The notes under the pieces are model-generated. The model made no database searches. It saw nothing but the letters and a program-made list of their open reading frames with translations, and was not told where the DNA came from. A stretch of DNA of 64,000 bases from Lepidurus packardi (taxonomy: Eukaryota > Arthropoda > Branchiopoda > Notostraca > Triopsidae). Both the position numbers and the translations under genes were made by a program. Below, one piece after another: positions 14,540 through 50,690 of this stretch; the first letter of the stretch is position 1, and every line of letters starts with the position of its first letter. The DNA lies in the NCBI GenBank assembly GCA_023053545.1, contig JAKZAN010000005.1, positions 1,798,001 through 1,862,000 on the forward strand, given 5' to 3'.

Positions 14540-14594
14540 TACCGCTAGATTCCAACTAGAGCATCAGTTCAGTCGGATTAGTCCAACCATCAAC

Positions 14595-19292: not shown

Positions 19293-19391
19293 GCTTTCTT
19301 TGCATCAAAATATTTATTACGTCTTTGACAAAGACGCAGATTCATTCACGATAAGTTACATATTCTAGGTGGGTGTACAAATTAGGGTAGT

Positions 19392-20273: not shown

Positions 20274-20400
20274 GTTAGCGGTTGGATTGGTTCTGCTGAA
20301 CTGATGATCTAGATGGAGAGTAGCGGTACTTTTATACCCACTCTTACTCGAACAAAGTTATGGTCAGTAATCGGTATCATTCCCACCTTACCGCATGCGG

Positions 20401-21270
20401 CTATTCGAAAGGTATCCGTCCTTGCCCTAGGTGCCTGGTAATAGAGCCCGATTGTAAGAGAAATTTTGGACGTATTCTTTGTTTCCCCCTAAAGAGACTG
20501 GACGGATTGCAGGACATGAATTGCACAGGAAAGTTTTCCGCCTCTGGAAATCGTTCTATTAATCTGTTACTTCTTCGCGACTCACGAGTTTTACACCGTA
20601 GAGTAATTTATTTTGCACTGTGGGAATTATTGAACTTCTCAAAGGATTTTTATGTGACTGCATTGTTTGGTCTGCTTACCAGAACGTAACCTGTTAGAAT
20701 TCATGCAATACTTTCGCAGCGCCGAACTAGTGCAATATATCATGCCGTAGACACATTTTGTTGTTTACTGCAGTAATATGTGCACAGCTTGGTATTTACA
20801 AATGGTATTTACGAAAGTTTGTAAGGCTCGATCGGTTGGTGACCTAAGTATAAATTTGGGAATTACTGTAAATGATTCCAAGTATATAAAGGTTTTGATA
20901 AGCGGTGGAGAATATATTGTATTTACCCAATTTCGGTCGAACGTAAATCATGGTCTAAACAGAATCTAAAGTGTAATGTATCATGGCCTCAGGTTTGAGC
21001 GCCATTTTGCTGTATCACACATGTTACTTGACTTTGGTTGTAGCTTTAATTTCTGAAATGCTAGTACACAGTTAGATATGCAGTTACTACGTAAGAATGA
21101 TTATATTCAGAACCATTTATGAAGATATTGTCTCTATCTTTCCGTGCAAGAAGGATTATAAATAAGAGTGTACAAAACACCAAAACCGGTATTGCAATAT
21201 AAAATATGTATTGTATTACACATATTCACACAGGTAAATCATAGATAAATTAAAATATCACATGGTTAAC
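20401..21270. other. Intergenic region between cuticle genes C and D
   Basis: Inverted copy of the A-B intergenic region. No separate gene was recognised. Confidence 0.5.
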
Positions 21271-22231
21271 TCAGTATTTAATGTTGGTAGCATATTCAGT
21301 GGCAGGAGAGTTTGGAACAGCCTTAGAGTAGGCAGCAGGTGTGGGGTGGTAACCAACGGGTGAAGCAGGCTTGTAATGTACGGGGGCACGGGAGTACGGG
21401 ACTTGAGCGGCCTTAAAAGTAATGGGAGAAGGTTGATGTACTACTGGAGCGGGTTCGTAGGATACGGGAGCAGGGTTGTATTGAGCGTGGGAAGCCTTGT
21501 ATGAGGCTGGTGCAGAATCGTAAGCAACAGGAGAAGTCTGGTATGCAGCAGGTTCGGGCTTGTAGGCAACTGGCGCCAAGTTGAATGGTACGGGTGCAGG
21601 GTTGTATCCCGGGCGTTGATTGGGTTGGGCTGGGTATTTGGGAGACTCGTAAGACGCCTGTGATTGCTCGTAGGCTAGCTTGGGTTGTTCGTAAGCAGGC
21701 TTGGGTTGATTGTAGGCCGGAGTAGCTGGTTTGTAGGCGGGTTTGTTGTTTTCCTGGTACTGGGCAGTACCTTCGTATTTGACATCGGCGATCAGTCCAT
21801 AGCCTTCGTCTTTGTAGGTGACGGTTTGTACGCGGCTATCGGGGAGAACTACTCGGTACGCTCCAGAAACGGTCTTGCCGTCACTGTATTCGTTATGGCT
21901 GAAATCAGCGTAAGTGTAGTCGTCCTTCACAGCGTAATCGAAGGCGTACGGCTTGGGAGACTACAGGATAGCAAAATCTTATTGAATTTATATCGTGGGC
22001 GTAATAACTATAAACTTACGTAATCCTCGGTCTTCTCGTTTGTCCTGTAAGACTGTTGAGGGTACTGTGGTTGAGGGTAGGCCGGCACCGTTTGGTATTT
22101 AGCTTGTGGGTAGATTTCCGAGGCCAGAGCCACGGCGACGAGTGCTGCCAGAACAAAGAACTAGAAATGGAAAGGTAATATAATTTCCAATTTTTGATGG
22201 TGCAGATTCCCTTTGTAAAACTCACTTGCAT
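21271..22231 (-). CDS. RR-1 cuticle protein D
   Basis: Exons 22231-22226, 22160-22020 and 21960-21271 give about 278 aa. The RR-1 domain is identical to protein A. The tail is 16 residues longer than in A and A', with the extra segment around SPVGYHPTPAAYSKAVP. This suggests D keeps the ancestral tail and A/A' share a 48-bp deletion. The TATA box is at 22294-22287 (-). A consensus AATAAA is missing (AATACA instead) in the place where gene A has it. Confidence 0.94.
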
Positions 22232-22458
22232 GTTGATGGTTGGACTAATCCGACTGAACTGATGCTCTAGTTGGAATCTAGCGGTACTTTTATACTGCCC
22301 ACTTTCGCTTTTTCAGCAATCAATTGGTTTAAACCCACAGTACCGTACGTGAAACAACGCTATCATTAGAAAGGACTCGTCCTAAATGTCCAGCAAAGTG
22401 CCAAACCCATCGTAAAAGAAACTTTTACAGTAATGGGATCACGTGGTAAAACCAGATC

Positions 22459-28990: not shown

Positions 28991-29439
28991 GGCCCTCGAC
29001 CTTTGTCGTAGTAGAATTCGACAGAAGTGAAGCAAACACTTCAAATTTACATTTATAAGTTTTTACTAATCGTTGTTTCTTTCAGGCGAGCAAATAGAAG
29101 GCTATTTGGATCGAATATTTGTATTGAAGTCGAATATGGATCACAAGATTTCGAAGCCATTTTTAAGATTACTGTGATGGATAGCAAAGAGCCGACTTAC
29201 ATGGAGTTTGTATTGTTGAGTTTTCTTTTAAGTTTGAATTTTAAATTTGTTCACTTTTCCCACGCTTTAGGATCGGTGGTGGTGGTAGCCTTAGCCAGCA
29301 GTGGCGGTCTTTGGCGGGCAAATCCTATTGAAAACATCGTTCTAGGTTTTGATGATGGCGGTGGCTAACCTTAGACAGCAGTGGCGGTCTTTGGCGGGCA
29401 AATCCTATTGAAAACATCGTTGGAGGTTTTCATTCCCAA

Positions 29440-29893
29440 CTGGATTTCCTGCGTTATTACCCAAGATTATCTTCACTGGAAGCCTTTATGACGCTAAACT
29501 CCGCCCACGTTCGAAGAAGACGAGGATTCTTGTGAGCCGCAGTTAGCCGTTTCACAAGATTCATCTTTGATGTTCATAACGCAAGGTCCATTTTTTAGTT
29601 TTATTGAACTCGTTCTTTTTTTATTAATATCTGCCGTGTACTGTCTAATAGGCTTGAGGTAGAGCTCCGTTTGGCTACTATTCCGTATTGGGAAATACCA
29701 CGAGCAGGCCCGCCCATTTTCAGTGAGTTAAGTCTTAAACGCTAGCAGCGGAGTTTTTCTGGGTTTTGGTGGACGTGGTTCGGGTGCATTGTGGGGCCTG
29801 TGGAGGACCAGCAGGAATGGGACGTTATATTCGGGTTTGGTGTTGAAGAGGCGGAGTAAGTTTTGATTTCTTATTTTTTTTTTATTCTCTATA
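29440..29893 (+). repeat. Tandem non-coding unit S-T-(R), copy 3, interrupted
   Basis: S (29440-29580) and T (29652-29850) are well preserved. T ends GAGGCGGAGTAAGTTTTGAT followed by a T-rich stretch ending CTCTA-TA, exactly where copies 1 and 2 enter R. Instead a Tigger terminal repeat starts at 29894. The missing R is found at 41298, immediately outside a second Tigger end. Confidence 0.75.
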
Positions 29894-30132
29894 CAGTGGA
29901 ACCTCTCTTAACGAGCACCTCTCATAACGAGTAATTCGCATAACGAGCAAAACAAATGTGCAAAAATTGCTCCCTTAACGAGCGACATTTTCACAACGAG
30001 TGACGCAGAAAGGGAAGTCACGTAACGTATGAGTCACTTGTGAGCCGGGACACATCAGTTTCGCTTAACGAGTGTTTCATATAACGAGCAAGATTCTGGA
30101 ACGAATTATGCTCGTTAAGAGAGGTTCCACTG
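29894..30132. mobile_element. Tigger-family MITE (239 bp)
   Basis: Perfect terminal inverted repeats (CAGTGGAACCTCTCTTAACG ... CGTTAAGAGAGGTTCCACTG) are flanked by TA on both sides. Its ends match those of the 2 kb Tigger at 39307-41297, including sub-terminal TAACGAG repeats and GCAAGATTCTGGAACGAATT, so it is an internal deletion derivative of that family. No coding sequence. Confidence 0.93.
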
Positions 30133-30681
30133 TATCTTCCTATACCCTACTCTGTCCGATAGCCCTTTCGGGAAGTTTCGGTTCGTCAGCAACCGACGTG
30201 GGCTTTCTCCTTGCAATGAGACCATACGAGGCAGTTTGGACAACGCGGGTAACGCTTGGCGTACAGTGGAGCCCGCAAGTAATGTCGCGAAGTCAGTTTT
30301 AGGTGATCGAACTTGTACTATTCCCACTTAGCGCATAAGAGCATAACAGCTGCATAAGCGAGGCACAAGGAAGGGAAAGGTGAACTATAGACTTTCAAGG
30401 GTTTCAGCTAACTTCCATAGCTTCACCGACAGAAAGGGGTTGGGCTAAAGAAGGGGGTTGAGCAAGTTATGAAAGGTATTGTAAACAAATACCTAATACG
30501 TGTAGCTAGTTGTGAGCAAACAACTGTAACCTTTTTCCGATTTTTAAAAAGCACCATTTTTCCAAGAAATGTTATTGTAAACAATTGACTTTCCCCAAAT
30601 CCGGTTGAAGCTCAAACAAGCATGCAACGTTCATTTGGTGTTCGTCTTTTAATGGTGTAAAAACAATCGAACGGAGTGGAA

Positions 30682-31624
30682 ATGTCAAATCCAAATGTTT
30701 CGGATGAAGTTTTTATTAACGCGTATTGCAAGTACTCCGTGCTTTTTAACTCGAAGCTTCAAAGACGTGAACGTACGAGAGAACGCGCTGAAAAGTATCT
30801 CGCATGATATTGGATTAAGTAATTGTGCAAACAAAAATGTGTATTCTGAAAAAAATATTAAGTCTCAAAAAGAATGGATTTGTTAATAGACGATTGCAGA
30901 ATAGACGAACTGGAGCAGCGTTTCAAACGGTTGAGGTTGAAATTCGTACGTTTGTGTAAAAGAGCAGGGCTTTTACGAAGCGGATCTGCTGCCAAACCTT
31001 TCAATCCCCGAGAAAAATGGGATTTATACCCGCTTTTTGATTCCTTATTTGGAGTACATATATTATCAAGACGGTATTGAAAATGTAAAAAAGGCATTTC
31101 ATAAATTACTAACATTTACATATGTCATAGCAAACGTAGCACTAATGTTGCCGTTCCCTCGAGTGCTGACGAGAACGAAGCCAGCGAAGAAGAAATTAAC
31201 ATTGCAGAAGGAAACGAAGAGGTCGTGCAAAGCGAAAGAACGACGTGTATTTCTCCAGGAAACGCTTCCTTTGTCTCTTTCGAAGACAGCGACAAAGATA
31301 ATACTTTTGCAACGCAGGGTTCAGATGCTACTTTTCCTTCCATTCGTAGTCAAGGTAGAAGATTAGTCTAGAAAATTAATTATACTTAAGTTTAAAACTT
31401 TAGGAATAAACGTTGGTGCTTCCACCTCTCGAAGCACGATGAGTACCAAGAAGAAGCGCAAGTCGAATGATGACTTGGAAGTTACAATGTGCGAAACTTT
31501 CGCAATTCAGTCCAGCCATATCCAATGCCAGGCAAAGGAAAATGACGAGCTTGACTTCGTCATGAAGCACTACACAAAAAGGTTAAAGCGGTTGCCGTCT
31601 AATCAATCCGAGGAGATTCTCTAG
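30682..31624 (+). pseudogene. MADF-BESS accessory protein of the Harbinger element
   Basis: From ATG 30682 the frame gives VFINAYCKYSVLFNSK, then shifts to SFKDVNVRENALKSISHDIG, then KRLRLKFVRLCKRAG and, after another shift, IPYLEYIYYQ. These are the successive helices of a MADF domain. After an acidic linker (31135-31360) and an intron (about 31355-31402) it reads STKKKRKSNDD and ends with a BESS-like LDFVMKHYTKRLKRLPSNQS. At least two frameshifts make it a pseudogene. The family partner protein aids DNA binding of Harbinger transposase. Confidence 0.75.
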
Positions 31625-32039
31625 CACTTTGAAAGAATGTTGATGGAGGATGTTGTTGAATGTGGATGTTGAATTGCAGTGGATTGTGGATGTGGATTGA
31701 ATGTGGATGTTGAATTGCAGAATCGGGTAGCACTTACAGATCGTGATACCGAGAGTGACTAATGGAACCTCTATGGTATACTTAATCATGACAATTTCTA
31801 ATTTTATCCATTTAGCCTTTGTTCTAAAATCCTATAAAATTATTTTTTCAACCCTGTGTGTTTCCATTATTAGTTTAAAATAATTGACGTCTTTTTATAA
31901 CTCACGTTACTCGGAAAACGTATTCTTTGTTTACTGCATACTGCACGAAATTTATCGACGCGGAAAATAAAAATTCTAAGTAAAGTAAACTTGTACTACC
32001 CAGTCCCATATGTGAGCTTAAACTTTATACATCATCTCT

Positions 32040-33210
32040 TCAAGAAGTTCTCTTTACGTAGTCATTTTGCCCTGGGACACATCCTTTATTAACAAAATAC
32101 TTTGCGTAAATATTCCGAACATTTACCGCTTGAAGGAGGCTGTTCTCAGGTATGGTGTTCGCATCTTCTTCATGATAAACATCATTTTGATAATTCTGCA
32201 CAACACTAGATTTGACAACTTTCGAACCTTGCTTTGACTTCATAATATAGTTATGCAATAGCACACATGCCTTTACAAATATTAGTACATGTTCGGGTTG
32301 CGTGAATAAGAGTTGTGAGTATCCTCAAACGTTCTGACAAGATGCCAAACGCTCAACCGTTCTTCGGGCTCGAGAGAGGCGGTAGTTGAATACTATTTCT
32401 TCATGACTTAATCGGCCAGTACCCCTACCTGGGTATGGCCGTAGAATGTGTTGGTCTAAAGGAAGGCTTCATCGGCGACAAATACATAGGGCAAGATCAT
32501 TTCCGAGTTTTGAAGTTTAGCGGGTCTCGGAATGTTGAGTTTTCCTTTCCGCAGGGCTTTACGAAATATGGAAGCCTCAAATATACCCCCGTCACTTTCC
32601 TTTCCAAACGCGCCAATATCCAACATTGTAAAACAGTAGTCCGCATCGCAAGCAGCGAGCATTACAATATTAAAATAATGTTTATAATTGAAGTACAGGG
32701 ATCCAGACCTAGGAGGTGCTCTTATGCGTACGTGCTTCCCATCAATAGCTCCTAGGAAGGCAGTTTGGGAAATTCCATCTTTTCTCAAATCTTTGGCTTA
32801 CTGATCTCCAGTTTACGCTGTCAGGACTTGGGAGGTACTCATCTAGTAAAGAATTGTAGATCGCAACCGAGACTTCCCGTAGAATCTTGCACACAGTACT
32901 GTGTCCACATCGAAAAGAAAAGGCGAGGAACCTTTGTGACTCTCCTGATGCCAGATACCGTAACGTGATCGAGAGTTTCTCTCCTGTTGAGATATATTTT
33001 GCAATTAATAGTGTATTTTAGTTATTAGTGATCCATATCTTATAGAGAAATTACCAACGGAAATTGCCTTTCGAAATTTCGTGTCTGGTTTCTTGATTTT
33101 AGGACCAATTTTGTTCAGCAAATCATCAAACATGCTCAAGCTCACTCGTAAATAAACGCTAAACATCCTTGGGTCCTTCAATCTCAACTCAAGTTTGGTA
33201 TCAAGGTGTT
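32040..33210 (-). pseudogene. Harbinger transposase (DDE_Tnp_4 nuclease), frame-broken
   Basis: Segments in order on the minus strand: LRLKDPRMFSVYLRVS (33180), an intron, LRYLASGESQRFLAF and HSTVCKILREV (about 32960-32880), WNFPNCL then GAIDGKHVRIRAPP with the first catalytic Asp, CDADYCF, VFVADEAFL with the second Asp, ILRPYPGRGTG and RARRTVER with the catalytic Glu, then ACVLLHNYIMK. One extra base before GAIDGKH and others near 32455 and 32345 break the frame, so the protein cannot be made although all three catalytic residues survive. Confidence 0.82.
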
Positions 33211-34201
33211 ATATTCACTAAACTTCAGTCGGTTAGCTTCACTATAATAGGACCTAGTCCATAGCTTTTTTTCCTCCGCAATAACAATAACATGTAAGCC
33301 ACATTAATAACCCCCACGAAAGAAGAGAAGTAAATTGCCATGTCCATGGCTGGTAAACTAGCTCACTCTTTGTTTATGGTTCAATAGCCCTTGTTTACTA
33401 ACATTTCACCTTCCTGTCTAACTGGGCGGATCTTCGTAATTAGTTTGGCTCCGCCACTGGCTCACAAATGACAATAGGTAGGCCAACGGAGGCATAGCAT
33501 GATCATAAGCATAAGGCCTTATGCGCTAAGTGGGAATAGGCCCGTAGTGGTGCCCTTCGCAGAAAACCTGTGTCATCCTCTATTTAAGGCCACGGTGAAG
33601 TGCAACCTCTTATGGCGCTATAGCATGGCAAACTTTCAAACATTGTAACGACACGATGAAACATTGTAATTAAACCAAATTTTTACACAATGCGTGTAAG
33701 GTATAAATCTAGGGGGTGAAGGTCGTACTTTATTTTTTTTTTATTCTGTGATTTTTTTAATAAATGTTCAAAGTTATCAAAATCTTAAATAAATCATATA
33801 TCAAAATTTTACGACCTTCATCCCCTAGGTTTTATTATTTAAAAAATTTTAAAACTCGAACTTTTCAATTATCTCTTTCTGTTTACTTTAAAAACTGCTT
33901 ATAAGTTTCTGAAGTTCTGATGAAAAATTGTGCTGCCACTCAGAAAATAACGGCCAGTCAGGAAACTGCATAGCTTGTGCTGAACTCAAGAATGAGCATG
34001 AAAAGGAGAAGAGCGTAAAAGTAAGGGGAAGTAAAGGGCAAGTAACTAATTGGGTTTGCTCGAGCCTAAAGTAACCCAAGGGCACAAATACCTTGTGGCG
34101 TTTTACCCTTTTCTTTTATTCTGAATGATTTTGTCTTGTGGCAACTGACGACTAGGATTTTACGCACTACTACAACTCTTACGAACTATTTATAGGCCGA
34201 A

Positions 34202-35356
34202 TTAAATTGACTGAAAATTAGTATCTCTAAAACCATCTACAATAATGGAGCTTTCCATAGCTGTAGACGGACCGTCCCAGTTTTTGAAACATTCGTGGGG
34301 GCGAGGATCCACTTGTTTGTTCTTAGCTTGTTGACAAATGGAACAATATTTGTTACGAACTCCTACATGCAATATTTTCTTGGTCCGCGCACCAATGATT
34401 ACGCCCACACCTGACTTGGCTGTGTACCTGGTGCCGTGGCTTCTTTGAGACCACCCACCATCGCCAATTACGGTTATGTACGGGGTGTTGTCTTCGTCGA
34501 TTTGTTCAGCCCGTTCAGCCGATTCACGTTCTTCCTTCCCTGCATTTTCTATTTCTAGCTTTGCCTCTTTCTCCCATATTTTCCCAACTTTACGTTCCTG
34601 GTCAATAAATGAGTTGCGGCTCATTGAAGGAACGCCAACGGTTGCCATGAATTCTTCTAAGTGGTTATGGGCTGCACCAATTTGCATAATTCCCATTGCA
34701 ATTTTTGTGTTGACGGACAAGGCCTGAACTTTATCTGACCTCAAGCGTGCAGCATGCGGCGAAATGTTCTTTTGCGTAGAGCTTGTCGCGTTTGGATAAA
34801 CCGGGTCAGTCGTAATAAAAAGATTATCCTGGCATTTCTCACATTTGAAAGAAAAACTGCTCCAAAAACCTTTCTTAACTTCCTTTTGGAAAGGAATGGG
34901 TGAGCGACAAATATCGTAGTGTTCAAAAATCTTATTGTGCCCTGACAAGAAATGGCAAACATTTACTAATCGAAGTCCGTCAACTTCTTTCTTCATTTTT
35001 GGTTGCGAATACCAAACAGGTTCAATGTTAAGTTCTACAGCATCAATTTCTGCCTGTTCTTTAAGAATGCGTGAAAGTTCGTCATCTTCAAGACAGTTCG
35101 TTTCTTTGTCAAGGAGATCTAAACTAGCAATATGGGAAACAACGGCGCTAGTGCTAGCTATAGGTTCAACGGAAATTGATTCTACACCAGGTGTGTAACT
35201 TACAGTATTGGAAGCTTGTAATTGAAAACTTTCACCTGGAATTAATTTCTCGGGCTCAGCTGGATGATGTTTCGTAATCTTTTCGTTTCGCGCCTTCAAA
35301 GCAACCCCCATTAGCAGGTGCTTTTTTTTCCTGGATGACACTTTTCTATTACCCAT
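34202..35356 (-). CDS. Mutator-like transposase, C-terminally truncated
   Basis: An uninterrupted 384-aa frame. After a basic N-terminus and a variable linker, conserved blocks appear from about residue 170: KCEKCQDNLFITT (zinc-knuckle-like), AAHNHLEEFMATVGVPSM, then ITVIGDGGWSQRSHG with the first catalytic Asp, SGVGVIIG, KILHVGVRNKYCSICQQAKN and CFKNWDGPSTAME. This is the Mutator-like transposase domain common in arthropod genomes. The frame stops just after VDGFRD, where the second half of the catalytic core (second Asp, Glu) should follow; no continuation was found downstream. The product is probably inactive unless it is spliced to something not recognised. Confidence 0.75.
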   Translation of the reverse strand: MGNRKVSSRKKKHLLMGVALKARNEKITKHHPAEPEKLIPGESFQLQASNTVSYTPGVESISVEPIASTSAVVSHIASLDLLDKETNCLEDDELSRILKEQAEIDAVELNIEPVWYSQPKMKKEVDGLRLVNVCHFLSGHNKIFEHYDICRSPIPFQKEVKKGFWSSFSFKCEKCQDNLFITTDPVYPNATSSTQKNISPHAARLRSDKVQALSVNTKIAMGIMQIGAAHNHLEEFMATVGVPSMSRNSFIDQERKVGKIWEKEAKLEIENAGKEERESAERAEQIDEDNTPYITVIGDGGWSQRSHGTRYTAKSGVGVIIGARTKKILHVGVRNKYCSICQQAKNKQVDPRPHECFKNWDGPSTAMESSIIVDGFRDTNFQSI

Positions 35357-36135
35357 TTTCAGTCAGTAGTACAACGCCAAAAAAGTTTCACACTAACTTA
35401 CACAACTCACTTTTTTTAACCACTCACGAACGCAGTAACGAACTTTTTGGGTTGTATTTTTTTTAATAACGTACAATGCTATAATGTTTTAAACAATTGA
35501 AGAAATTGGTAACACTAAAATTAAGAACCGTTCATGCTGATCTCTGATTACGGAATGAGTTCTAGTCAAAGTTGCATAACAATATTCCGAAAAGTTAGCG
35601 AAATAGTAAAAGTGAATGTCCTTTGAAATCGCATTTGGGCAAATTACACAAACACTAAAAATTAAAAAGTCATTCAGTTTTGAGAAAGAGTGAATTCCCC
35701 TTAGTAGAAAAATTATGCGTTTCCAGTTATTCCGTTGGGATATAACCAAAGCTTGTTGTTGTAGGGAATTTGAGATCGAAAGTGAAGGTTGTTGCAAAAT
35801 ACTGATCCTCAATAATTGGGAATCTATTTTATTGGTCACTTCCTTTGACTGATTCATGTCTAAAAGCTAAAATATTCAGTAACTTATTTTATATTCCAGA
35901 GTTTCACGATGTGGCCAAGCAGGAAAAACTATTGCAAGATGTAATTTAGCGATCAATGACCTATCGGCATCAAGATGATCATCAGCATGCATTACACTTT
36001 TCAGCAGTGCCATAGCAGTCAAACGAAAGCCCCAAAGAGCAAGATCTTCGAAGGCTATTAGTTGACTAGAACTAGAATATAAACAGTGATCGCTAAGACG
36101 AGCGCTTGATAAGATGGGTGGTAACCTTGAGTGTA

Positions 36136-36380
36136 AAGCACGGTAATGGCAATTTTCTAGGAAAATAGTATGATTTAGTTCGGAATTTCTAAGTACACTT
36201 CTAAACTTTGGAAATTGGATTATCCCTTCCATTTGTATTTTATACATAAAACGACGGTGTCAACCTTGACCATAAAGAATGGTAATGGCAATTTTCTAAG
36301 AAAATATAATTGCTTAGTTCGCAATTTCTAAATACTTACACGTCTAGCGCATGAAAATTGGATTATCAGTAAATTGGTAT
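36136..36380. repeat. Tandem duplication of about 120 bp inside the Mutator-like element
   Basis: Two consecutive copies share ACCTTGA, GGTAATGGCAATTTTCTA, GAAAATA, TTAGTTCG and AATTGGATTATC in the same order. They lie between the transposase fragment and the right end. Confidence 0.6.
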
Positions 36381-36722
36381 TTCCCTCCCATTCTCAAGCG
36401 AACATAGGGAGGAAGTTCCTTAGCATAAGCTGACCTTTTCCCTTTACCCCATACTTTACCCTAATTATTGTGTGCAGACCTCTAGTGCGAGAAATTAGTC
36501 ATAGGTGTATATTTATTTGTAGCATTCTCAGGATATAGGGGTCTATGCCAGTGACATCTTTTGACGGAAAAGGGTCAACTACTTCGCCTTCACCGTGGCC
36601 TTAATAAGAAAAAAACCGCATCTCTAGGTTATAGCGTATAGACCCAAGGACAAAGGTCGCAATGTTAGGGCAAGGACGCTGGTAATGTCAAGTACAGATA
36701 AGAAGCCCAAGACATTTTTGGG

Positions 36723-36730
36723 TATAAATA
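36723..36730 (+). promoter_or_regulatory. TATA box of the Gln-rich secreted protein gene
   Basis: TATAAATA is followed about 37 bp later by an initiator-like CTCAGTAG (about 36762-36769), with the coding start at 36831. This is the usual arrangement for a regulated arthropod secretory-protein gene. Confidence 0.7.
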
Positions 36731-36830
36731 CTTCTCCGCGAACACCTGATAATCATTCCAGCTCAGTAGCTTGTCTTCTAACTAACAAGAAGCAACTTTT
36801 CTGAGTGGTATACATCTTGCGAGAGAGACC

Positions 36831-38723
36831 ATGGTTTCCAAAACCGTTCTTCTCCTGGCCGTAGTGGCCTGTGTTGAAAGATGCCTTTCTCTTCCGGTAG
36901 CCAACGTAAGTTTACAATTTTTACTCCTAGTGCAGGATAAGATAAATATAATTACATTTGTATCTTTCTTGTATTTCTCAGGATGAAGCGCAAGAAGTTG
37001 CTGCTGCTTCCATCGAATTCGGTCAGACTGCCAGAGAAGGAAGATCGGCATTGTGGTACTATCCTACGCAAAGTCAAGCGCAGGCGCAAGTCCAGGCGCA
37101 GGCTCAATACCAGGTAGAAGACGATGGCTCTTACCACCCAGATGATGAGGGACAATACCAGGAACAATACCAGGAGCAATCGCAATTTCAGCACCAAAGC
37201 CAGGCCCAGACACAAAGTCAGGACCAAGCACAAAAGCCTTGTCCAACGCCCTGCTATGTGCCCTGTTACGAGCCCTGTTATAAACTTTGCCAGACACCCT
37301 GCTACAAGCCATGCGAGCAGTCACAACAAACCCAAGTTCAACAGCAGACGCAGCAACAATCCCAGGCGCAATCCAAGGAGCAATCCCAATCGCAATCGCA
37401 AACTCAAGCTCAGACTCAAGGACAGAAGCCCTGCGAAAAACCTTGCACCCCATGCAAGCCTTGTACGGAAGAGCAGCAATACCAATTTCAACAACAGACT
37501 CAAGCGCAAACTCAAGCCCAAGTCGGACGTGAAAATGTCCAAGCCCAATCGCAAGCTCAACAACAGCAGCAAGTACAAGTGAACCACGAAAACCCTTGCG
37601 GAATACCATGCGCTGAACAAGCACAGACGCAAGTTCAACAGCAGAGTCAGCAACAGTCTCAAAACCAAACTCAATCGCAATCGCAATCCCAATCTCAAAC
37701 CCAATCACAAGAACAAATCCAGACTGAAAAACCCTGCGAAACTTGCTACCAACCTTGCTACCAACCTTGCTATGAACTCTGCTACGAACTGTATTACGAA
37801 CCCTGCTATCACACTCAGCAACAATCCCAGGCGCAATCCCAGACGCAATCCCAGGAGCAATCCCAGGCGCAATCCCAGGAGCAATACCAAGCGCAATCGC
37901 AATCGCAAACCCAAGTTCAGACTCACACTCAAGAACAGAAGCCCTGCGAGAGACCTTGCACCCCATGCAAGCCTTGTAAAGAAGAGCATCAATTCCAATT
38001 TCAACAACAATCCCAGGAACAAGCGCAAGCCCAATTAGGACGCGGAAATTTCCAAGCCCAATCACAAGCTCAGCAGCAGCAGCAAGTCCAAGGGAGCAGG
38101 CCTTGTGTTCCTACATGCGGAATTCCGTGCTGGGTACCGTGCTCCGAACAAGCGCAGACGCAAGTTCAACAGCAGACTCAGCAACAATCCCAAACTCAAA
38201 CCCAATCGCAAGAGCAAAGTCAATCGCAAACACAGCAGCAATCGCAAACACAGCAGCAATCGCAAACCCAACAGCAAGTTCATCCGCCTAAGCCATGCGG
38301 ACAGCCTTGCGTAAAACTCTGCATCAAGCCTTGCGTAAGGCCATGCCAAGACCACGTTCAACAGCAGGTTCAGCAACAATCTCAAAGTCAGACCCAACAG
38401 CAAACGCAAACCCAATGGCAAGCTCAGCAACAGGCACAGGAACAGGCTCAAATCCAATGGCAAGCTCAGCAACAGGCACAGGTACAAGCTCAGCAACAAG
38501 CACAGGCACAGGCTCAATCCCAATGGCAAGCTCAGCAACAGGCACAGGATCAAGTACAGGTTAGTTTTTAAATTTTGTTTCTTTCGTTTCATTAACCAAG
38601 TTTCTTTCTTAGGTCGCTGCCAAGCCTGAAACACCCTGCGGAAAGCCTAAACCCTGCAATGCGCAATACCAGAGTCAATACCAAGCTCAAGCACAGCAGC
38701 AGGGTCAATACATTGATCCATAG
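36831..38723 (+). CDS. Secreted Gln-rich / Cys-Pro repeat protein, unnamed
   Basis: Exons 36831-36905, 36982-38559 and 38613-38723 give about 587 aa with a clear signal peptide (MVSKTVLLLAVVACVERCLS). The mature chain alternates Gln-rich runs (QAQSQ, QQQSQ type) with eight short Cys-Pro islands such as PCYVPCYEPCYKLC, PCEKPCTPCKPC, CGIPC and PCVRPC. There is no known domain. Islands of paired cysteines in a Gln/Ser/Ala matrix suggest an extracellular structural, adhesive or cuticle/eggshell-type protein cross-linked through disulfides or glutamines; that role is inferred. A GT-AG intron (38724-38780) appears to begin directly after the TAG stop. The gene lies inside the Tigger-bounded segment. 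Confidence 0.82.
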
Positions 38724-38780
38724 GTAAATACTTGTCTTCTTAAATGAATAACTCAAAAAGCTTGAATTCTTCGTTTCAGA

Positions 38781-39304
38781 TCAGCTAAGGCGCCATCAAG
38801 AGACCTGTATCGGCGCATTCCATCTTCGGCCTTTCACAGTAGCTCAGCTTCTTCTTGCTTCTTTTTCTTACTTACTGCCAACCTTTTATGAGTCTTTCCC
38901 CTTTTTTACTTCAAGGGGACTATTATATTAAAATATTTATATTGGTAAGATAGGTAAAAGAAGGGTCGAACAATACAATTCTTTGAATCCAGACTTCAAG
39001 CTGCGTTATGTGCTTCAAGATTCGGGAAAAATGCGTTCACTACATCCCAAACAACTACGTGCTTTTGAGTCCAAAAATCGATCGTGGCCCACATACTTCA
39101 TAGTCATTTTTCCGTACAATTTTTTTTACTAGTTAGACTTAATGAAAGCGAATCTTCAGGGTTAACTGTTTTCTTAGTATTATTTAGCATTATTTTTTTT
39201 ATTCTCTGTTACCTTTGAGGCGTCCTGAGAATTAAGCGTATGATACTACCTATTCAAAAAACAGCGCACTATTACCAGTAATAAACACGAAACGTGGGAG
39301 GAAA
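38781..39304. other. 3' flank of the Gln-rich gene
   Basis: It starts with the likely last (untranslated) exon after an acceptor TTTCAG at 38780. AT-rich sequence follows; no gene was seen. Confidence 0.4.
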
Positions 39305-39306
39305 TA

Positions 39307-41297
39307 CAGTGGAACCTCTCTTACCGAGGACCTCTCATAACGAGTAATTCGCATTACGAGCAAAACAAAAAATTTGAAAAAATTGCTCCCTTAACGAGCG
39401 ACATTTCGCATAACTGAGTGACGCATAAAGGGAAGTCACGTAAGGTATGAGTCGTAAGGTATTGGTGTAAGCGTAGCTGATCTAGCGCCCTCATACAATC
39501 GATGTACATCAACGATTTGCACTATCCTCAAGAACAAGGACAAAATTAAGGAGATAAATGCTTCAAAAGGAGTGTCAAGAATGTCTTCAAAACGTTTACG
39601 TATTCTTGATGATGTTGAAAAGTTGCTTCTCGTATGGATAAACGAAAAGGGATTGCAAGGCGATACTACTAACGAAAAAATCATTTGTGAGAAGGCAAAA
39701 GCTATATTCGTCGACCTTGTTAAGAAATCGTCAGGATCATCAACTGCCGAAAATGAAGAACAATTTAAGGGAAGTAATGGATGGTTCGAGAAGTTTAAGA
39801 GAAGAACCGGCATTCACAGCGTTGTGAGGCATGGTGAAGCAGCAAGCTCTGACACGAAGGCAGCAGAGAACTTCATCGGCGACTTCAAGAAGCTCGTGGA
39901 TTTAGAGGGTTACCTGCCACAACAAGTTTTTAATTGTGACGAGACGGGTCTCTTCTGGAAAAAGATGCCGAAGCGAACCTATATAGCAACAGAGGAGAAT
40001 GCAATGCCTGGCCACAAGCCGATGAAAGACCGCCTTACGCTGCTATTTTGTGCCGATGCAAGCGGTGATTTGAAAATTAAACCGCTACTTGTTTACCATT
40101 CAGAAACTCCACGAGCCTTCAAGAAGTGTAATGTTCAGAGAAACAGACTAAATGTAATGTGGAGATCCAAAAAGAAGGCTTGGGTGACACGTAACATTTT
40201 CACTGAATGGATCAATGGAGTGTTCGGTCCTTCTGTGAAAAAATACTTGGTTGGGATGAATCTGCCATTCCGTGTCACGCTCGTTATGGACAACGCACCC
40301 GCCTATCCTCCAGGCCTACAAGACGATATCATTGAGGAATTTAATTTCATCAGGATCCAGTTTTTGCCTCCCAACACCACTCCGTTACTCCAGCCTATGG
40401 ATCAGCAGGTTATTTCCAACTTTAAGAAACTGTACACAAAAACTCTTTTCGAGCGTTGTTTTGACGTGACTGAAGGAACAAATCTCACTCTCAGAGAGTT
40501 TTGGAAAGACCACTTTCACATCGTTGCTTGCCTCAAGATAATTGACAAGGCGTGGGAAGGGGTTACCAAGAGGACCCTCTTTTCTGCTTGGAAGAAGCTT
40601 TGGCCAGAGAGCGTTCACGAATGTGAATTTGAAACAGTACCTGTAGAGTCTACAGTCAACGAGATTGTATCTTTGGCTAATATCATGGGACTGGAGGTGG
40701 ATAACAATGATATTGAAGAGCTTGTGGAAGAGCACAATCAAGAGCTGACCACTGAAGGGCTTATGGAGTTGGATCGTATTTCACAGCAAGAAGTTATGAA
40801 GGAGAGTTTGTTAGTGGAGGAAGAGGAAGTAGCAGAGCAACAATCTTCTGTCGCAATAAGAGAAATGCTGAAAGCATGGGAAACTGTTTCATCGTACATT
40901 GAGAAGCGTCATCCTAATAAGGAGGTGGCTATGCGTGCTACAAATTTATTCAATGATAATGCTGTGTCACATTTTCACCAAATTTTAAAGAGTCGGCAAA
41001 AACAAATGTCTCTAGACAGCTTTCTAGTAAAAAAGAATTAATTATTTGTCATAAATTAATAAGTAATAAGCTAGTTTCGATTTTTGAAAATGTTTTTTCC
41101 AGGTTGTTACGATCTTTAACGATTTATAAGCATGTACCTGTAATTTTATTTGAATAAACATTAAAAAATATTTCGCATGGAACGCATTATCGTGTTTTAC
41201 ATTGACTTATAAGGGAAAATCAGTTTCGCTTAACGAGTGTTTCACATAACGAGCAAGATTCTGGAACGAATTAAACTCGTTAAGAGAGGTTCCACTG
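39307..41297 (+). mobile_element. Near-complete Tigger transposon (pogo superfamily)
   Basis: Terminal inverted repeats CAGTGGAACCTCTCTTA... and ...TAAGAGAGGTTCCACTG lie next to TA at both ends, total 1991 bp. Sub-terminal TAACGAG repeats are shared with the 239-bp MITE at 29894. It encodes one transposase frame lacking the first part of the helix-turn-helix. The family moves by cut-and-paste into TA. Confidence 0.93.
39572..41041 (+). CDS. Tigger transposase, N-terminally shortened
   Basis: 489 aa from the first in-frame ATG. The same frame extends upstream to about 39500 with STICTILKNKDKIKE, the end of the CENP-B-type helix-turn-helix, whose beginning is missing. Next come the Tc5 DNA-binding region (VEKLLLVWINEK, GWFEKFKRRTGIHSV) and the DDE_1 catalytic domain with VFNCDETGLFWKKMPKRT, VTLVMDNAPAYPPG and LPPNTTPLLQPMDQQVI, so all three acidic positions are present. 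The C-terminal part is intact (REFWKDHFHIV, AWKKLWP, stop at 41041). Without a full DNA-binding domain it is probably inactive by itself, but it is relatively young since no internal stop has appeared. Confidence 0.92.
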   Translation: MSRMSSKRLRILDDVEKLLLVWINEKGLQGDTTNEKIICEKAKAIFVDLVKKSSGSSTAENEEQFKGSNGWFEKFKRRTGIHSVVRHGEAASSDTKAAENFIGDFKKLVDLEGYLPQQVFNCDETGLFWKKMPKRTYIATEENAMPGHKPMKDRLTLLFCADASGDLKIKPLLVYHSETPRAFKKCNVQRNRLNVMWRSKKKAWVTRNIFTEWINGVFGPSVKKYLVGMNLPFRVTLVMDNAPAYPPGLQDDIIEEFNFIRIQFLPPNTTPLLQPMDQQVISNFKKLYTKTLFERCFDVTEGTNLTLREFWKDHFHIVACLKIIDKAWEGVTKRTLFSAWKKLWPESVHECEFETVPVESTVNEIVSLANIMGLEVDNNDIEELVEEHNQELTTEGLMELDRISQQEVMKESLLVEEEEVAEQQSSVAIREMLKAWETVSSYIEKRHPNKEVAMRATNLFNDNAVSHFHQILKSRQKQMSLDSFLVKKN

Positions 41298-41560
41298 TAC
41301 TAATGTTGTTGTTTTTATTCAAATAGGCTGTCCATTGGATCTCCTGCGTTATTATTTAAAAACATCTCAATGACATTGTGCCTTTACGTCGTTAAATTCC
41401 GTCCATTTGAAGAAAGCGAAGAATCTTGTGAGCTGTAGTTATCAAATTCCCCAGTTTCGTCCTTGGCGTTCACAACTGGAGGTAAAGTATTTTCATTGGA
41501 TTGAACAAGATTTAAAAAAGGAATAGTTGCTTAGTACTAGGCTATGATGGGCTTCAGATA
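41298..41560 (+). repeat. Module R, copy 3 (right half of interrupted unit)
   Basis: It begins directly at the TA next to the Tigger end with CTAATGTTGTTG and continues CTCCTGCGTTATTATTT, TCAATGACATTGTGCCTTTA, matching R at 27317 and 28845. It is the missing partner of the S-T copy at 29440-29893. Confidence 0.75.
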
Positions 41561-41969
41561 GAGTTTGGTATAGAAACGTACGGTGAGCTTGGTCTGCTCA
41601 TTTGTTGTGAATCTTTGAACCGGAGGCTGTTCCAACCCGCGGAAGCCCCACATTTCCAGACTGTAGCAAGTACTGCCACGTTCTGAAGATCCACAGTAAG
41701 CTCCTGCCAACTTTTTGCGGATTTCATTGCCACATTAATGTTTATTCTGTTTAGTTTGACCCTTGCAGCAGGTGTTTTATGGAAAGGACGCAAGGAGATC
41801 GCGTATTCGTCAAGACTTGAACCTGTCGTGTGGTGTGCGATGCTTTCCCTCTTCCGGTTTGTTAATTTTTTGGTAAGTGATTTTTGTATTTGTATTTTCT
41901 TTCATTTTTATTTTCCTTCAAATTATTTATATTTTCCTTGAAATTATTTGTAGTTTCCTTCTTTTTTTG

Positions 41970-43230
41970 GGGGGTGTTGATAGTATTGCTAACACGCAAA
42001 ATGCCAGAATAGGGAATTTAAACAATACCCAACGCAGTGCCCAATCATGTTGCTCGTTGTAATGCCGCCATGGCTTCTGGCCAATGGATGCAGCCCTCTA
42101 CAGGTGCTTGCCGCACCTTTGCCGAGACGACGGATTTATCCCGTCTGCGAACAAACTTCGAACCTGCTACACGTCAGGTATTTTGCTCCCATTTTCTTTC
42201 AAGTGTATCGACTCCCATTCTACTTATATCTAAGTGAAAGCATACAACACTTCCATAGTATGCAAGCAGCATGCATATTCTCAGAGTTTGCTCATTATAA
42301 GTAGTAATATTGAGCGTTTTCGACATAACTCCCGAGGGTTAGCGTCAGTAGGTTTCGAACAATTTTTCGAACGTTTTCAAGTTTCTTCGCTCCCCTTGGC
42401 TACATATTGCCACTAGTGTCAAGTTCCCGTAGTGTCTTCCATTTCCTCTAGTCAGACAACGATTCGTTCTTTCTATTTTTCACGAAATCCGATTTTTTTA
42501 AGCAATTTTCCAGTTTCTTTTTGTATTTGTCAAGTCGGGTGGGGTGACTAAGTGGGGTGACAAAGCTTAATACCCTTATTAAGTTGTGTTTAAACCTGAA
42601 CGGTATTATAAAGAGTTGTCCCTTTTCTATGTGTTAGACGGTGACACAATTTCACGATCAGTGACATTGTTACAACGTGTTAAGCATATGGTGCTAATCC
42701 ATTCCCTCCCCCTGTTCCGCTCAGCCAACTCTTTATCCCCTTGCCGCTTTCCATCCTTTTGGAGAAGGAAACGAGAACAAACAATTGCTTATCTGCTAAG
42801 CTGAGGCTGTGGGACAGTAGCTATTATTTCATGTTCTGTGGGAGCCGCCAGGAGAACCAGATATGCTAGGAGTTGAAAAGTGTTGTGGCCGCCTGGAAGT
42901 GTGGTGGAATCCGGCTGCGATTCTGCCGTGTTTTCAAGATTGTAGCTGTTTGGGGGGGGGGGGGGGGGGGGGGGGGGGGAGGAACCACGTGTTCGCTCAG
43001 TCGGGTAATAACTTATTGGAATTTTTTCCAAAGTGGCTTTCTGGTCTCTCTCCCTAATCGAAGAGTCCATTTTATGTTTGAACATGTTGGTTAACATGGC
43101 CATAGAAGATAGATTGATGTTAAAGTAGTTTTCATCCCAGTGAGGGTTTATTTCTTGGCCATTTCTGAGAAAGCGCCCGGAAGAGAACGTGTCGTCGAAT
43201 GTGTCGTTCATTGCAATTCTATTGATGCTT
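41970..43230 (+). repeat. Non-coding module P, copy 2
   Basis: Ordered blocks match 23940-26210, with a long deletion between about 43110 and 43140 relative to copy 1. No conserved reading frame was found. It contains a 28-bp G run at the place where copy 1 has a shorter one. Confidence 0.7.
42952..42979 (+). repeat. Poly-G tract, 28 bp
   Basis: An uninterrupted run of 28 G. Shorter G runs lie at the matching place in module P copy 1 (about 25460) and at 23939 and 28510. Length may be affected by assembly or polymerase slippage. Confidence 0.8.
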
Positions 43231-45035: not shown

Positions 45036-45294
45036 TATTTTTGCACAATTCCGTAAAATTCCATGAAGTTCTGCCTTCCTCGTCATAGGACCTACTGTTA
45101 CAAGTTTCTTTTACGATGGGTTTGGCACTTTGCTGGACATTTAGGACGAGTCCTTTCTAATGAAAGCGTTGTTTCACGTACGGTACTGTGGGTTTAAACC
45201 AATTGCTTGCTGAAAAAGCGAAAGTGGGCAGTATAAAAGTACCACTAGATTCCAACTAGAGCATCAGTTCAGTCGGATTAGTCCAACCATCAAC

Positions 45295-46207
45295 ATGCAA
45301 GTGAGTTTTACAAAGGGAATCTGCACCATCAAAAATTGGAAATTATATTACCTTTCCATTTCTAGTTCTTTGTTCTGGCAGCACTCGTCGCCGTGGCTCT
45401 GGCCTCGGAAATCTACCCACAAGCTAAATACCAAACGGTGCCGGCCTACCCTCAACCACAGTACCCTCAACAGTCTTACAGGACAAACGAGAAGACCGAG
45501 GATTACGTAAGTTTATAGTTATTACGCCCACGATATAAACTCAATAAGATTTTGCTATCCTGTAGTCTCCCAAGCCGTACGCCTTCGATTACGCTGTGAA
45601 GGACGACTACACTTACGCTGATTTCAGCCATAACGAATACAGTGACGGCAAGACCGTGTCTGGAACGTACCGAGTAGTTCTTCCCGATAGCCGCGTACAA
45701 ACCGTCACCTACAAAGACGAAGGCTATGGACTGATCGCCGATGTCAAATACGAAGGTACTGCCCAGTACCAGGAAAACAACAAACCCGCCTACAAACCAG
45801 CTACTCCGGCCTACAATCAACCCAAGCCTGCTTACGAACAACCCAAGCTAGCCTACGAGCAATCACAGGCGTCTTACGAGTCTCCCAAATACCCAGCCCA
45901 ACCCAATCAACGTCCGGGATACAACCCTGCACCCGTACCATTCAACCTGGCGCCAGTTGCCTACAAGCCCGAGCCTGCTGCATACCAGACTTCTCCTGTT
46001 GCTTACGATTCTGCACCAGCCTCATACAAGGCTTCCCACGCTCAATACAACCCTGCTCCGGTATCCTACGAACCCGCTCCAGTAGTATATCAACCTTCTC
46101 CCATTACTTTTAAGGCCGCTCAAGTCCCGTACTCCCCTGCCCCAGTACATTACAAGCCTGCTCCATACTCTGCTGCCACTGAATATGTTACCAACATTAA
46201 ATACTGA
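45295..46207 (+). CDS. RR-1 cuticle protein A' (block II)
   Basis: Exons 45295-45300, 45366-45506 and 45566-46207 give about 262 aa. It is almost identical to protein A, including the shared 16-residue deletion relative to D. Differences are few (GTYRVV for GAYRVV, EYVTNIKY for EYATNIKY). The TATA box is at 45232-45239 with the same downstream initiator. The poly(A) signal position reads AATACA instead of AATAAA. Secreted RR-1 chitin-binding protein. Confidence 0.94.
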
Positions 46208-47076
46208 GTTAACCATGTTATATTTTAATTTATCTATGATTTACCTGTGTGAATATGTGTAATACAATACATATTTTATATTGCAATACCGGTTTCGGTG
46301 TTTTGTACACTCTTATTTATAATCCTTCTTGCACGGAAAGATAGAGACAATATCTTCCTAAATGGTTCTGAATATAATCATTCTTACGTAGCAACTGCAT
46401 ATCTAACTGTGTAGTAGCATTTCAGAAATTAAAGCTACAACCAAAGTCAAGTAACATGTGTGATACAGCAAAATGGCGCTCAAACCTGAGGCCATGATAC
46501 ATTACACTTTAGATTCTGTTTAGACCATGATTCACGTTCAACCGAAATTGGGTAAATACAATATATTCTCCACCGCTTATCAAAACCTTTATATACTTGG
46601 AATCATTTACAGTAATTCCCAAATTTATACTTAGGTCACCAACCGATCGAGCCTTACAAACTTTCGTGAATACTATTTGTAAATACCAAGCTGTGCACAT
46701 ATTACTGCAGTAAACAACAAAATGTGTGTACGGCATGATATATTGCACTAGTTCGGCGCTGCGAAAGTATTGCATGAATTCTAACAGGTTATGTTCTGGT
46801 AAGCAGACCAAACAATGCAATCACATAAAATCCCTTGAGAAGTTCAATAATTCCCACAGTGCAAAATAAATTATTCTACGGTGCAAAACTCGTGAGTCGT
46901 GACGAAGTAACAGATTAATAGAACGATTTCCAGAGGCGGAAAACTTTCCTGTGCAATTCATATCCTGCAATCCGTTCAGTCTCTTTAGGGGGAAACAAAG
47001 AATACGTCCAAAATTTCTCTTACAATCGGGCTCTATTACCAGGCACCTAGGGCAAGGACGGATACCTTTCGAATAG
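46208..47076. other. Intergenic region between A' and B'
   Basis: Near-identical direct copy of 15508-16377. Nothing else was recognised. Confidence 0.5.
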
Positions 47077-47203
47077 CCGCATGCGGTAAGGTGGGAATGA
47101 TACCGATTACTGACCATAACTTTGTTCGAGTAAGAGTGGGTATAAAAGTACCGCTACTCTCCATCTAGATCATCAGTTCAGCAGAACCAATCCAACCATT
47201 AAC

Positions 47204-48085
47204 ATGCAAGTGAGTTTTAAAGAAGGAAAGCAAAAGTTTAAAAACTATATTATCTTTCCATTTTTAGTTCTTTACGATAGCAGCACTCGTCACCGCGGCT
47301 CTCGCCTCTGACATCTACCCACAAGCCAAATACCAATCGGTACCTGCCTACTCTCAACCGCAGTACCCTCAACAGTCTTACAAGACAAAAGAGAAGACCG
47401 AAGATTACGTAAGTTTATAATAATAACGCACATGACATAAGACTGACATAAAACCAATAAGAATGTATGTCCTGTGTAGTCTCCCAAACCGTACTCCTTC
47501 GATTACGCTGTGAAAGACGACTACACATATGCCGATTTCAACCATAACGAATACAGCGATGGAAAGGTGGTATCTGGTTCTTACCGCGTAGTTCTCCCCG
47601 ATAGCCGAATCCAAACCGTTACCTACAAGGACGAAGGTTACGGATTGATCGCTGATGTCAAATACGAAGGTACTGCCCAGTACCAGGAATACAACAAGCC
47701 CGCCTACAAACCATCGTACCCAGCTGCCTACGAGCAAGCTATTCCAGCGTACAATCAACCTAAGCCTGTCTATGAACAATCTAAACTAGCCTACGACCAA
47801 CCAACGGCAACTTACGAGGCCCCGGAATACGTCGTTCAACCCACTCAGCGTCCATCTTACAAACCTGCACCAGTCTCCTACAAATCAGCTCCAGTAGCTT
47901 ATCAAACTTCGCCTGCATCTTACAAGCCAGCACTAGTATCCTACAATCCTTCTCCAGTCACTTACAAACCATCTCCGGCAGCTTACAGCTCTGCACCCGT
48001 TGCTTACAAAGCGTCCCCTACCACCTACACCACAAAGGATGCTTCATATCCTTCGATCGAATACGCTACATCCACCAAATACTGA
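47204..48085 (+). CDS. RR-1 cuticle protein B' (block II)
   Basis: Exons 47204-47209, 47268-47408 and 47480-48085 give about 250 aa. Signal peptide and RR-1 domain are as in B, with GSYRVV in place of GTYRVV. Tail residues PAPVSYKSAPV, YSSAPV and KDASYPS are shared with C' and not with B or C. The TATA box is at 47141-47148 and the CCGCATGCGG palindrome at 47077-47086. AATAAA lies about 70 bp after the stop. Confidence 0.94.
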
Positions 48086-48511
48086 ACTACCCTAATTTAT
48101 ACACCCACCTAGAAAGTGTAACTTATCGCAGATGAATTTGCGTCTTTGTCAAGGACGTAATAAATATTTTTGATGCAAAGAAAGCAAAAAAGCCTCCTGA
48201 ACTTAATGACTAAAATTTCATTTGAGACCATATCGCTAATTTACTAATTTCATTGTTCAACACAACCAAACGAAGACACCCTTGCACACTAATTTGAAAA
48301 GTTAGAACCTCACCACGAACACACTTTGCTACTTCCATTTTCTTGAACCTTCGTGTTTTATGCCAGTTTATTGTTCGAAAAGCGAAAGTGTTACAGTATT
48401 AAATATACCGGATTAGTTGTACGATCAACACGAAAGAAAGTTTTACTCCAATATTTCCATGACAAGAAATTCAAATCTCAAAATCTTTTTTTATTACATT
48501 TCGTCATTCTT

Positions 48512-48755
48512 ACAGCAATCGTCACAAGTGTTGCCGGAGTCTGAAATGTATCCACACGCCAAATAGCAAACGACACCGTGCTGTCAACAGTCTTACAAGA
48601 CAAAGGAGAAGACCGAGGATTACGTAAGTTTATAGTTATTAAGCATATGACATCCAATCAGAAAAAATTGGCTGTCCTATATAGTCTCCCAAACCGTACT
48701 CTTTGGATTACGCTGTGAAAAACGACTATGCTTATGCCGATTTCAGCCATAACGA
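48512..48755 (+). pseudogene. Broken sixth cuticle gene of block II
   Basis: It has an exon 2-like stretch (AIVTSVAG, then YPHAK followed by TAG, and YKTKEKTEDY with a GTAAGT donor) and the start of exon 3 (SPKPYSLDYAVKNDYAYADFSHNE), which runs into an A tract at about 48755. The signal-peptide exon and the whole tail are missing and there is an internal stop, so it is non-functional. The 45-bp scrap at 17524 is its counterpart in block I. Confidence 0.85.
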
Positions 48756-49007
48756 AAAAAAAAATTATCTAATGAATAAAAGTTATTTTAATTTTTATAC
48801 ATTTTGTAATAATTTTTATATAGAGACTTTGGAGACATTTAATTGCCTGTTAAAGTTGTAAAATGATTGAAATCACCGCAAATCATTGTCTATATCAAAT
48901 TTCGATTTATCAGCTTTAGTTTGGGTTTTGAAATCGTCGTTGTTAGAGTATACGTTCAATAAGTAAAAAACAAAGGATAATCATAGTTATTGGCTATGGT
49001 TTTGGTT

Positions 49008-49794
49008 TCAGGCAACTTTCGTGCAAACGGACAGTTTCGGGTCTGATTGAATCACTGGTTTACAGAAACTGTCGTTACCATGGCAAGATCCACAAGGCAT
49101 CGAATTTCCCAAGTAAATAAGACATGGCGATGATATGCAAGTGTCAATGCAATTGTAAGGATCCGTAATATAATTATCAATAAAATTAGGATTCAGGTTT
49201 CCTCTAGTTCCACACAAGCATTGCATAGGTGTGTGTTCTGCCCCTGTACATTTTCGATAAATTAATATTCAGTATTTTCCGTAGATTAATTCCGTTAATT
49301 AATAACAGTGATTATAAACTATTCTTATTATCATTTTTAAATTTAATTGGTTCGAAATCGTATACCTCCAAACGCGATGTAGGCCTCCCCAGGCGTAGTA
49401 CATTGATAACGTGCTTTATTCACAGCAATCCCACACAGAAGCCCAGATTGTCGCAGATTTACATTTCTAGTAAAACATTTTTGGGAAACTGGATCGTAAG
49501 CGTATGACGGACGCAATTGCATTCTGGCTAAAAGCGCGCATTCAATGGCAGATATCTGAAAGGCTGTCGGCGTCATAAAATCTTTGATCATTAGGATTTC
49601 TAAATTGCCGTTTGTTGCGTGAGCCGTGTTATCAATACAGCGAAATTGAACCATCTGCGCTAATACTTCCATCGCAACTGTATCAAATCACAAGCAAAAA
49701 TACGGTCAACTTTGTTGGACACGTTTTTGGACACAAAGATCTACTTACCTAGGACCCAAACGGTAGTTCTAGTAAGCTGTGTTACAGTTTTCAT
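49008..49794 (-). CDS. Secreted Cys-rich protein X' (block II)
   Basis: Exons 49794-49749, 49677-49366 and 49243-49008 give about 197 aa with the same intron positions and phases as X. Cysteine positions are conserved (CIDNTAHA, IECALLARM, QCLCGTRG, CIDTCISSPC). Substitutions are scattered, with one codon fewer near the C-terminus. Both copies remain open, which supports a real protein. Function unknown; possible PAN/apple-like fold in the N-terminal half. Confidence 0.75.
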
Positions 49795-50599: not shown

Positions 50600-50690
50600 A
50601 GAATACAACATGGTGAACTCAGTACTTAATGTTGGTAACATATTCAGTGGCAGCATAATATGGAGCAGTTTGGAGACTTGAGCATTTCAT
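50600..50690 (-). pseudogene. 3'-end scrap of an A/D-type cuticle gene
   Basis: On the minus strand it reads YAATEYVTNIKY-like codons followed by a stop and the same 3' flank as genes A and D (GTTGTATTCTAACTTATC). It is a displaced remnant of an A/D-type gene lying between X' and C'; the rest is deleted. Confidence 0.6.

Follow-up and report, generated by a model that had tools for sequence, protein, structure and literature searches.

How does a gene, together with its flanks, come to lie between two related transposons at a single TA in a repeat whose two halves are contiguous elsewhere? The question is raised by positions 29892-41299 of a 64,000-nt stretch of the genome of the arthropod Lepidurus packardi (C4:1798001-1862000, called the window below; the assembly totals 108.6 Mb in 344 contigs). 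Here a miniature inverted-repeat transposable element (MITE) on the left and a longer Tigger element of the same family on the right enclose a gene for a secreted Gln-rich/Cys-Pro protein. An earlier interpretation made from the letters of this DNA (the sequence-only reading) had offered as one option that the whole moved as a unit. That option gave the best fit: the interior is of C3 origin, its inner TAs lie next to complete elements, and the Tigger site is empty in all four C3 copies. We consider it likely that 29892-41299 is a composite (macro) Tigger transposon, the left end of the MITE and the right end of the Tigger having been mobilized as one.

The outer junctions and their empty site

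The interrupted repeat unit, the third in the window (T3/R3), consists of a left half, the T module, and a right half, the R module. The features that define the outer edges are:

29437-29893, plus strand: T module, left half of the interrupted unit (window and genome alignments)
29892-29893, no strand: outer TA on the left, one of the two copies of the duplicated target (sequence; single TA in contiguous paralogues)
29894-30132, plus strand: Tigger-family MITE of 239 bp with two complete ends (departing at 6 of 239 sites from the majority state of eight other copies)
39307-41297, plus strand: Tigger/pogo element of 1991 bp with complete ends (domains, end comparison, relatives)
41298-41299, no strand: outer TA on the right, the other copy of the duplicated target (sequence; joined-flank matches)
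41298-43195, plus strand: R module and the repeat that follows it, right half of the interrupted unit (window and genome alignments)

The left outer edge (29893/29894) reads CTCTATA/CAGTGG and the right outer edge (41297/41298) CCACTG/TACTAATG; a TA is present on every side of both elements. As the sequence-only reading had stated, T runs directly into R in the first two copies of the unit in the window, at ~27309 and 28845. The outer flanks of the segment (29499-29893 and 41300-41626) were joined and used as a query against the whole assembly. Scoring 40 of 168 candidates, and hence giving lower bounds, this search returned at least 54 matches, 44 of which span the T-R join by 30 bases or more on each side (two inside the window and 42 outside it). 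The other ten comprise the two window halves, six halves of three copies near contig ends, and two partial matches. Since genomic length differs from query length by only -49 to +23 bases in the 42 outside matches, none of these has a MITE or a Tigger at the join. The commonest boundary among the loci examined is TTCTCTATACTA(A/G)TGTTGTTG, with a single TA. At C1:315 kb (L032), a single alignment of 1796 columns (82.7%) extends from 29590 over the join as far as 42725, and L062 and L024 resemble this locus in their collinearity rightward past the join. A chance origin of the T-R contiguity is thereby excluded, and the claim that the segment interrupts a third T/R unit at one TA is confirmed. 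Thus, as in a macrotransposon, one target duplication lies at the outer edges and its empty site is seen in at least 42 matches. The term "tandem unit" used in the sequence-only reading needs correction in that the repeat is also dispersed, occurring at more than 40 genomic sites.

The DNA between the elements

Between the two elements lie five features:

30133-30317, plus strand: 5' flank of the carried gene locus (95% identical to C3:7466540-7466726), starting with the inner TA at 30133-30134
30318-33543, minus strand: Harbinger-type element in the 5' flank of the gene, with GTA on both sides (PF13359 DDE_Tnp_4; absent from the C3 copies)
33588-36600, minus strand: TTAA-flanked element, probably a Kolobok, that inserted later (PF20700; ends GGCCACGGTGAAG/CTTCACCGTGGCC; absent from the C3 copies)
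36831-38723, plus strand: gene for a secreted Gln-rich/Cys-Pro protein of 587 amino acids (aa) as predicted, with predicted exons 36831-36905, 36982-38559 and 38613-38723
38724-39306, plus strand: 3' flank of the gene up to the inner TA at 39305-39306 (94% identical to four C3 copies over 38700-39307; C3 reads uninterrupted GGAAATACGGGAATTTG)

The only close full relatives of the gene locus in the assembly are four copies arranged in two palindromes on C3. A search with the 3' side (38700-39310; all five candidates scored) gave four other matches, all at 94%: C3:7460996-7461606 (minus), 7468898-7469506 (plus), 8935172-8935776 (minus) and 8943450-8944054 (plus). The 5' side also matches part of C3:8937515-8937638 (95%). 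From 30133 to 39306 the window is collinear with a single C3 gene locus except for the Harbinger and TTAA insertions; the DNA between the two elements is thus contiguous DNA of donor type, as in a macrotransposon. Where the window has its Tigger, all four C3 copies continue through the TA as GGAAATACGGGAATTTGAC and contain no Tigger.

Three other explanations were weighed. In the first, two family members inserted independently at one TA; the sequence-only reading had already judged this the less likely course. A Tigger-family cluster at C5:2737095-2740355 (L005, L069) does have members back to back with a common TA, but two such insertions cannot supply a foreign gene locus that is contiguous and has its ends at the inner TAs; we regard this explanation as practically refuted, its probability being close to nil. 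The second is an assembly misjoin at two family repeats that placed a foreign piece in the array. Both joins do fall at repeats, but the true outer neighbors of the piece would then be expected elsewhere. In a search with the sequence past the 3' TA of the gene (all 17 candidates scored), that sequence begins only at the four C3 copies, the further matches being coding parts of the gene's repeats or short inner pieces; moreover, the gene has no extra copy in the assembly. A misjoin is thus very improbable. The third supposes that a break in a family element resident at T3-R3 was mended by copying MITE, gene and Tigger from a donor. Such repair would also be expected to yield exact element boundaries, and passages of PMC4270019 describe for maize how flanks around Ac ends are copied. 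The donor should persist, however, and no place that bears the gene has a MITE or a Tigger at these TAs, so that we hold copying repair to be improbable.

The two C3 home loci are the palindromes C3:7460434-7470036 (L052, L053) and C3:8934964-8944262 (L054, L055), in which the two arms agree at 99.7% and 99.8% of aligned sites. This identity suggests recent duplication or arm-to-arm conversion. At C3:7469865-7470036 (L053), a piece resembling the coding repeats of the gene lies inside the gene's own 3' flank. The 5' flank of the gene contains a dispersed repeat of ~160 bp (window 30156-30317), with 27 further matches at 68-78%.

The Harbinger named in the sequence-only reading was recognized by its DDE_Tnp_4 domain and its GTA flanks; its left part has seven relatives at 96-99%. 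The neighboring element had been called "Mutator-like", a name that we replace. Its only transposase match, PF20700, is to a domain named Mutator, but the TTAA duplications and the GGCCACGGTGAAG inverted ends point to Kolobok, which is defined, in the part of PMC9587614 that deals with it, by a TTAA duplication and RR...YY ends; both are found here, and the element is probably a Kolobok.

The edge elements and their probable mobilization

Inverted ends match at 23 of 23 positions in the MITE and 21 of 23 in the Tigger. Taken as a pair, the outer ends (left end of the MITE, right end of the Tigger) are inverted repeats at 22 of 23 positions, which bears out the claim of complete, family-matched terminal repeats at both outer edges. 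The elements lie in direct orientation; as in a macrotransposon, two complete elements of one family present compatible outer ends. The 25-base end pattern, allowing three mismatches or fewer, occurs 51 + 55 times in the genome and not at all in the control. The Tigger carries DDE_1 and HTH_Tnp_Tc5 domains (Pfam) and a catalytic spacing of DD36D; the spacings given for Tigger elements in the relevant part of PMC7386202 range over DD29-36D. By its domains, spacing and TA duplication, 39307-41297 is classed as a Tigger of the pogo superfamily.

These data suggest the following course of events. A secreted-protein gene of the C3 family would first have acquired two elements of one family in the same orientation, a MITE on one side and a longer Tigger on the other. 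A transposase, likely supplied in trans by another copy, would then have paired the outer left end of the MITE with the outer right end of the Tigger and excised the whole unit, which would have inserted at a TA in the T-R boundary of the C4 repeat, duplicating the TA. The moved unit would have measured ~5.2 kb without the Harbinger and the TTAA element (~6.2 kb together), both of which may predate or postdate the move.

A different history would have a Tigger resident at the T3-R3 TA and a circle, carrying the gene and one MITE and freed by recombination between flanking elements, entering it by homologous recombination. A crossover in the first ~145 bp would leave no trace, as the left ends have no type-specific differences there (eight MITE and eight Tigger ends, including those of the window), and the absence of a two-element donor would be accounted for. 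Yet, among the matches listed, none of the 42 contiguous copies has a member of the family at this TA. The pure right-hand types of the two elements exclude a crossover farther to the right: ATGCTCG in nine of nine MITE ends including the window's, and AAACTCG in the Tigger, for which only two right ends can be compared. Recombination also takes more steps; a doubly flanked donor is still required, plus two recombinations. We consider this history rather unlikely.

Several observations count against the composite Tigger transposon. Neither a two-element donor nor an excision scar was found in the searches of the assembly. Their absence weakens the assignment to the macrotransposons, although loss, non-sampling or repair from an element-free chromosome may be the cause; under the composite reading the donor would be missing because cut-and-paste removed it. 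The inner flank on the MITE side has a single comparable relative, the first palindrome's right arm, which reads TATATATCTTCC and has the end of another Tigger-like element 4 bp short of the window's junction; the second palindrome does not have this stretch of the locus. The sequence-only reading had also named in advance, as an outcome that would speak against it, T3 and R3 matching different units better than each other. This is half the case: T3 is nearest to units with a short R (88-90%), whereas R3 beyond ~125 bp is nearest to other units (86-88%). Uninterrupted T-R units in the same order do exist, at 84-87% (L009, L011) and 83-84% (L032, L062, L024); those at L009 and L011 make a unit of the T3-R3 kind plausible, though T3 and R3 may or may not derive from one unit. 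The transposase frame of the window Tigger is shortened, with 527 aa compared to 576 aa, uninterrupted, in a C5 relative that is 94% identical, and the element lacks ~250 bp near 39455 that five relatives have; it is therefore likely that the transposase acted in trans. Finally, a 2-bp TA duplication is by itself weak evidence, and the case is a single one.

Five other family pairs (C1:6.42 Mb, C6:8.57 Mb, C1:0.81 Mb, C5:2.74 Mb and C6:8.83 Mb) were examined with their outer flanks joined (150 + 150 bases each; 40 of 390 candidates scored). No outside match crosses a join by more than 11 bases, and of all these flanks only the one to the right of the C5 pair belongs by itself to a dispersed repeat; the check is uninformative as to composite movement.

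The enclosed gene

The gene had been described as intact-looking, and it proved to be open. In the model, spliced by eye without transcripts, the 587-aa protein has a hydrophobic start, 204 Gln and 36 Cys; the large exon gave no match in Pfam. When the five copies of the gene are read along the exon columns of the window, all are stop-free and all differences in coding length are multiples of three. A 194-bp stretch that includes the acceptor of intron 1 and the beginning of exon 2 is missing from both arms of the first palindrome, and one of the two arms of the second shows a large deletion in its interior; therefore, not every C3 relative need be functional. At ungapped sites, identity between the window copy and the C3 copies is 98.0-98.3%, and 96.8-97.0% in 38800-39306.

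Rates of synonymous (dS) and non-synonymous (dN) substitution were compared between the window and three arms. Against the right arm of the first palindrome there are 9 synonymous and 12 non-synonymous differences (dS 0.030, dN 0.009; 528 codons); against the right arm of the second, 11 and 12 (dS 0.033, dN 0.009; 573 codons); and against the left arm of the second, 10 and 9 (dS 0.042, dN 0.009). A dN of ~0.3 of dS suggests, at these small counts, that the protein has been kept.

Other features of the window and of the T/R repeat

The repeat array is flanked by two clusters of genes of the insect-cuticle type (Chitin_bind_4), at window 14397-22429 and 45099-51783, both built of mirror-image arms; these domains point to an arthropod. 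A large open frame at 52898-54580 matches TFIIF-alpha over nearly the whole model. An Rfam scan of the whole 64-kb window gave no match. A search for SL1 RNA was negative, as it was in every control genome, and is therefore uninformative.

Elsewhere in the assembly, near-identical T/R copies lie near contig ends (L057, C5:11 kb; L058, C3:12.859 of 12.866 Mb; L059, C6:10.739 of 10.744 Mb) and carry an unrelated insert of ~280 bp at the identical T-R boundary. Locus L063 (~6493-8000; C6:6931.5-6933 kb) contains ~9 tandem copies of a ~159-bp unit that matches window 29277-29433. Mirror-image T/R pairs with equal or similar match scores were seen at C1:414777-415360 and C1:423175-423758 (L024, L023) and at C4:982236 and C4:1009378; inverted duplications look common in this genome. 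A MITE at C6:9148091 was considered as a resident element in a T flank, on account of a 31-base match into T, and was rejected: the site is AT-rich and has neither a T nor an R module.

Discussion

Gene capture by DNA transposons usually concerns fragments inside one element and is known mostly from plants. At the locus described here, two separate elements appear to have moved a whole, still open gene between chromosomes in an arthropod. The survival of the outer empty site, the relatives at home and one inner empty site in one assembly makes the event legible almost to the single base. A natural Tigger case carrying a whole gene would be a new form of macrotransposon. We see about even chances for the fuller proposition that, in an animal, natural Tigger/MITE macrotransposition copied a complete host gene with its promoter and 3' flank to another chromosome and that the moved copy is still functional. 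In that event, every gene that had received two members of such a family within a few kilobases would be mobile. A screen suggests itself, for gene copies that lie between two elements of the same family and whose outer flanks adjoin elsewhere.

Movement of linked elements en bloc is termed macrotransposition. Macrotransposons are known from maize Ac/Ds and, as a route of gene duplication, mainly from maize; Huang and Dooner in 2008 and Wang et al. in 2022 reportedly dealt with those of Ac/Ds. There, as proposed for the window, two linked elements in direct orientation move with the DNA between them by means of their outer ends. The systems differ in that Ac/Ds are hAT elements of a plant, whereas the window has pogo/Tigger elements, one partner a MITE, a whole gene as cargo, and a single fixed event inferred from sequence. 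In the literature, partially covered, we found no whole gene carried by a natural pogo- or mariner-group macrotransposon.

Pack-TYPE elements (parts of PMC8903248) and Turmoil-1, with its transduplication in C. elegans (parts of PMC2572040), resemble the segment in being DNA transposons with host coding sequence. Their cargo, as set out there, lies inside one element, whereas that of the window lies between two complete ones; Pack-TYPE capture was rejected on finding four complete ends rather than a single pair. In the Composite Insertions produced by reversed Ac ends, too, transposon ends flank duplicated host DNA (PMC4270019, in part). These hold an internal junction of two re-replicated flanks, whereas the interior of the window is collinear with one locus and has no such junction, and this origin was likewise rejected.

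Macrotransposition of P elements has been proposed for the origin of a MITE in Anopheles, in the portion of PMC1562414 concerned with it. Nearby copies would there move en bloc with one end of each in use, but the proposal serves to explain a MITE, concerns another superfamily and, in that portion, involves no gene cargo. That a pair of complete elements can move as one has an engineered precedent in the Sleeping Beauty sandwich vectors (sections of PMC4229213). In these, two complete Tc1/mariner-related elements surround a cargo and are cut at their outer ends, as would have happened at the L. packardi locus; the vectors differ in being engineered, with their inner ends disabled and their elements placed head to head.

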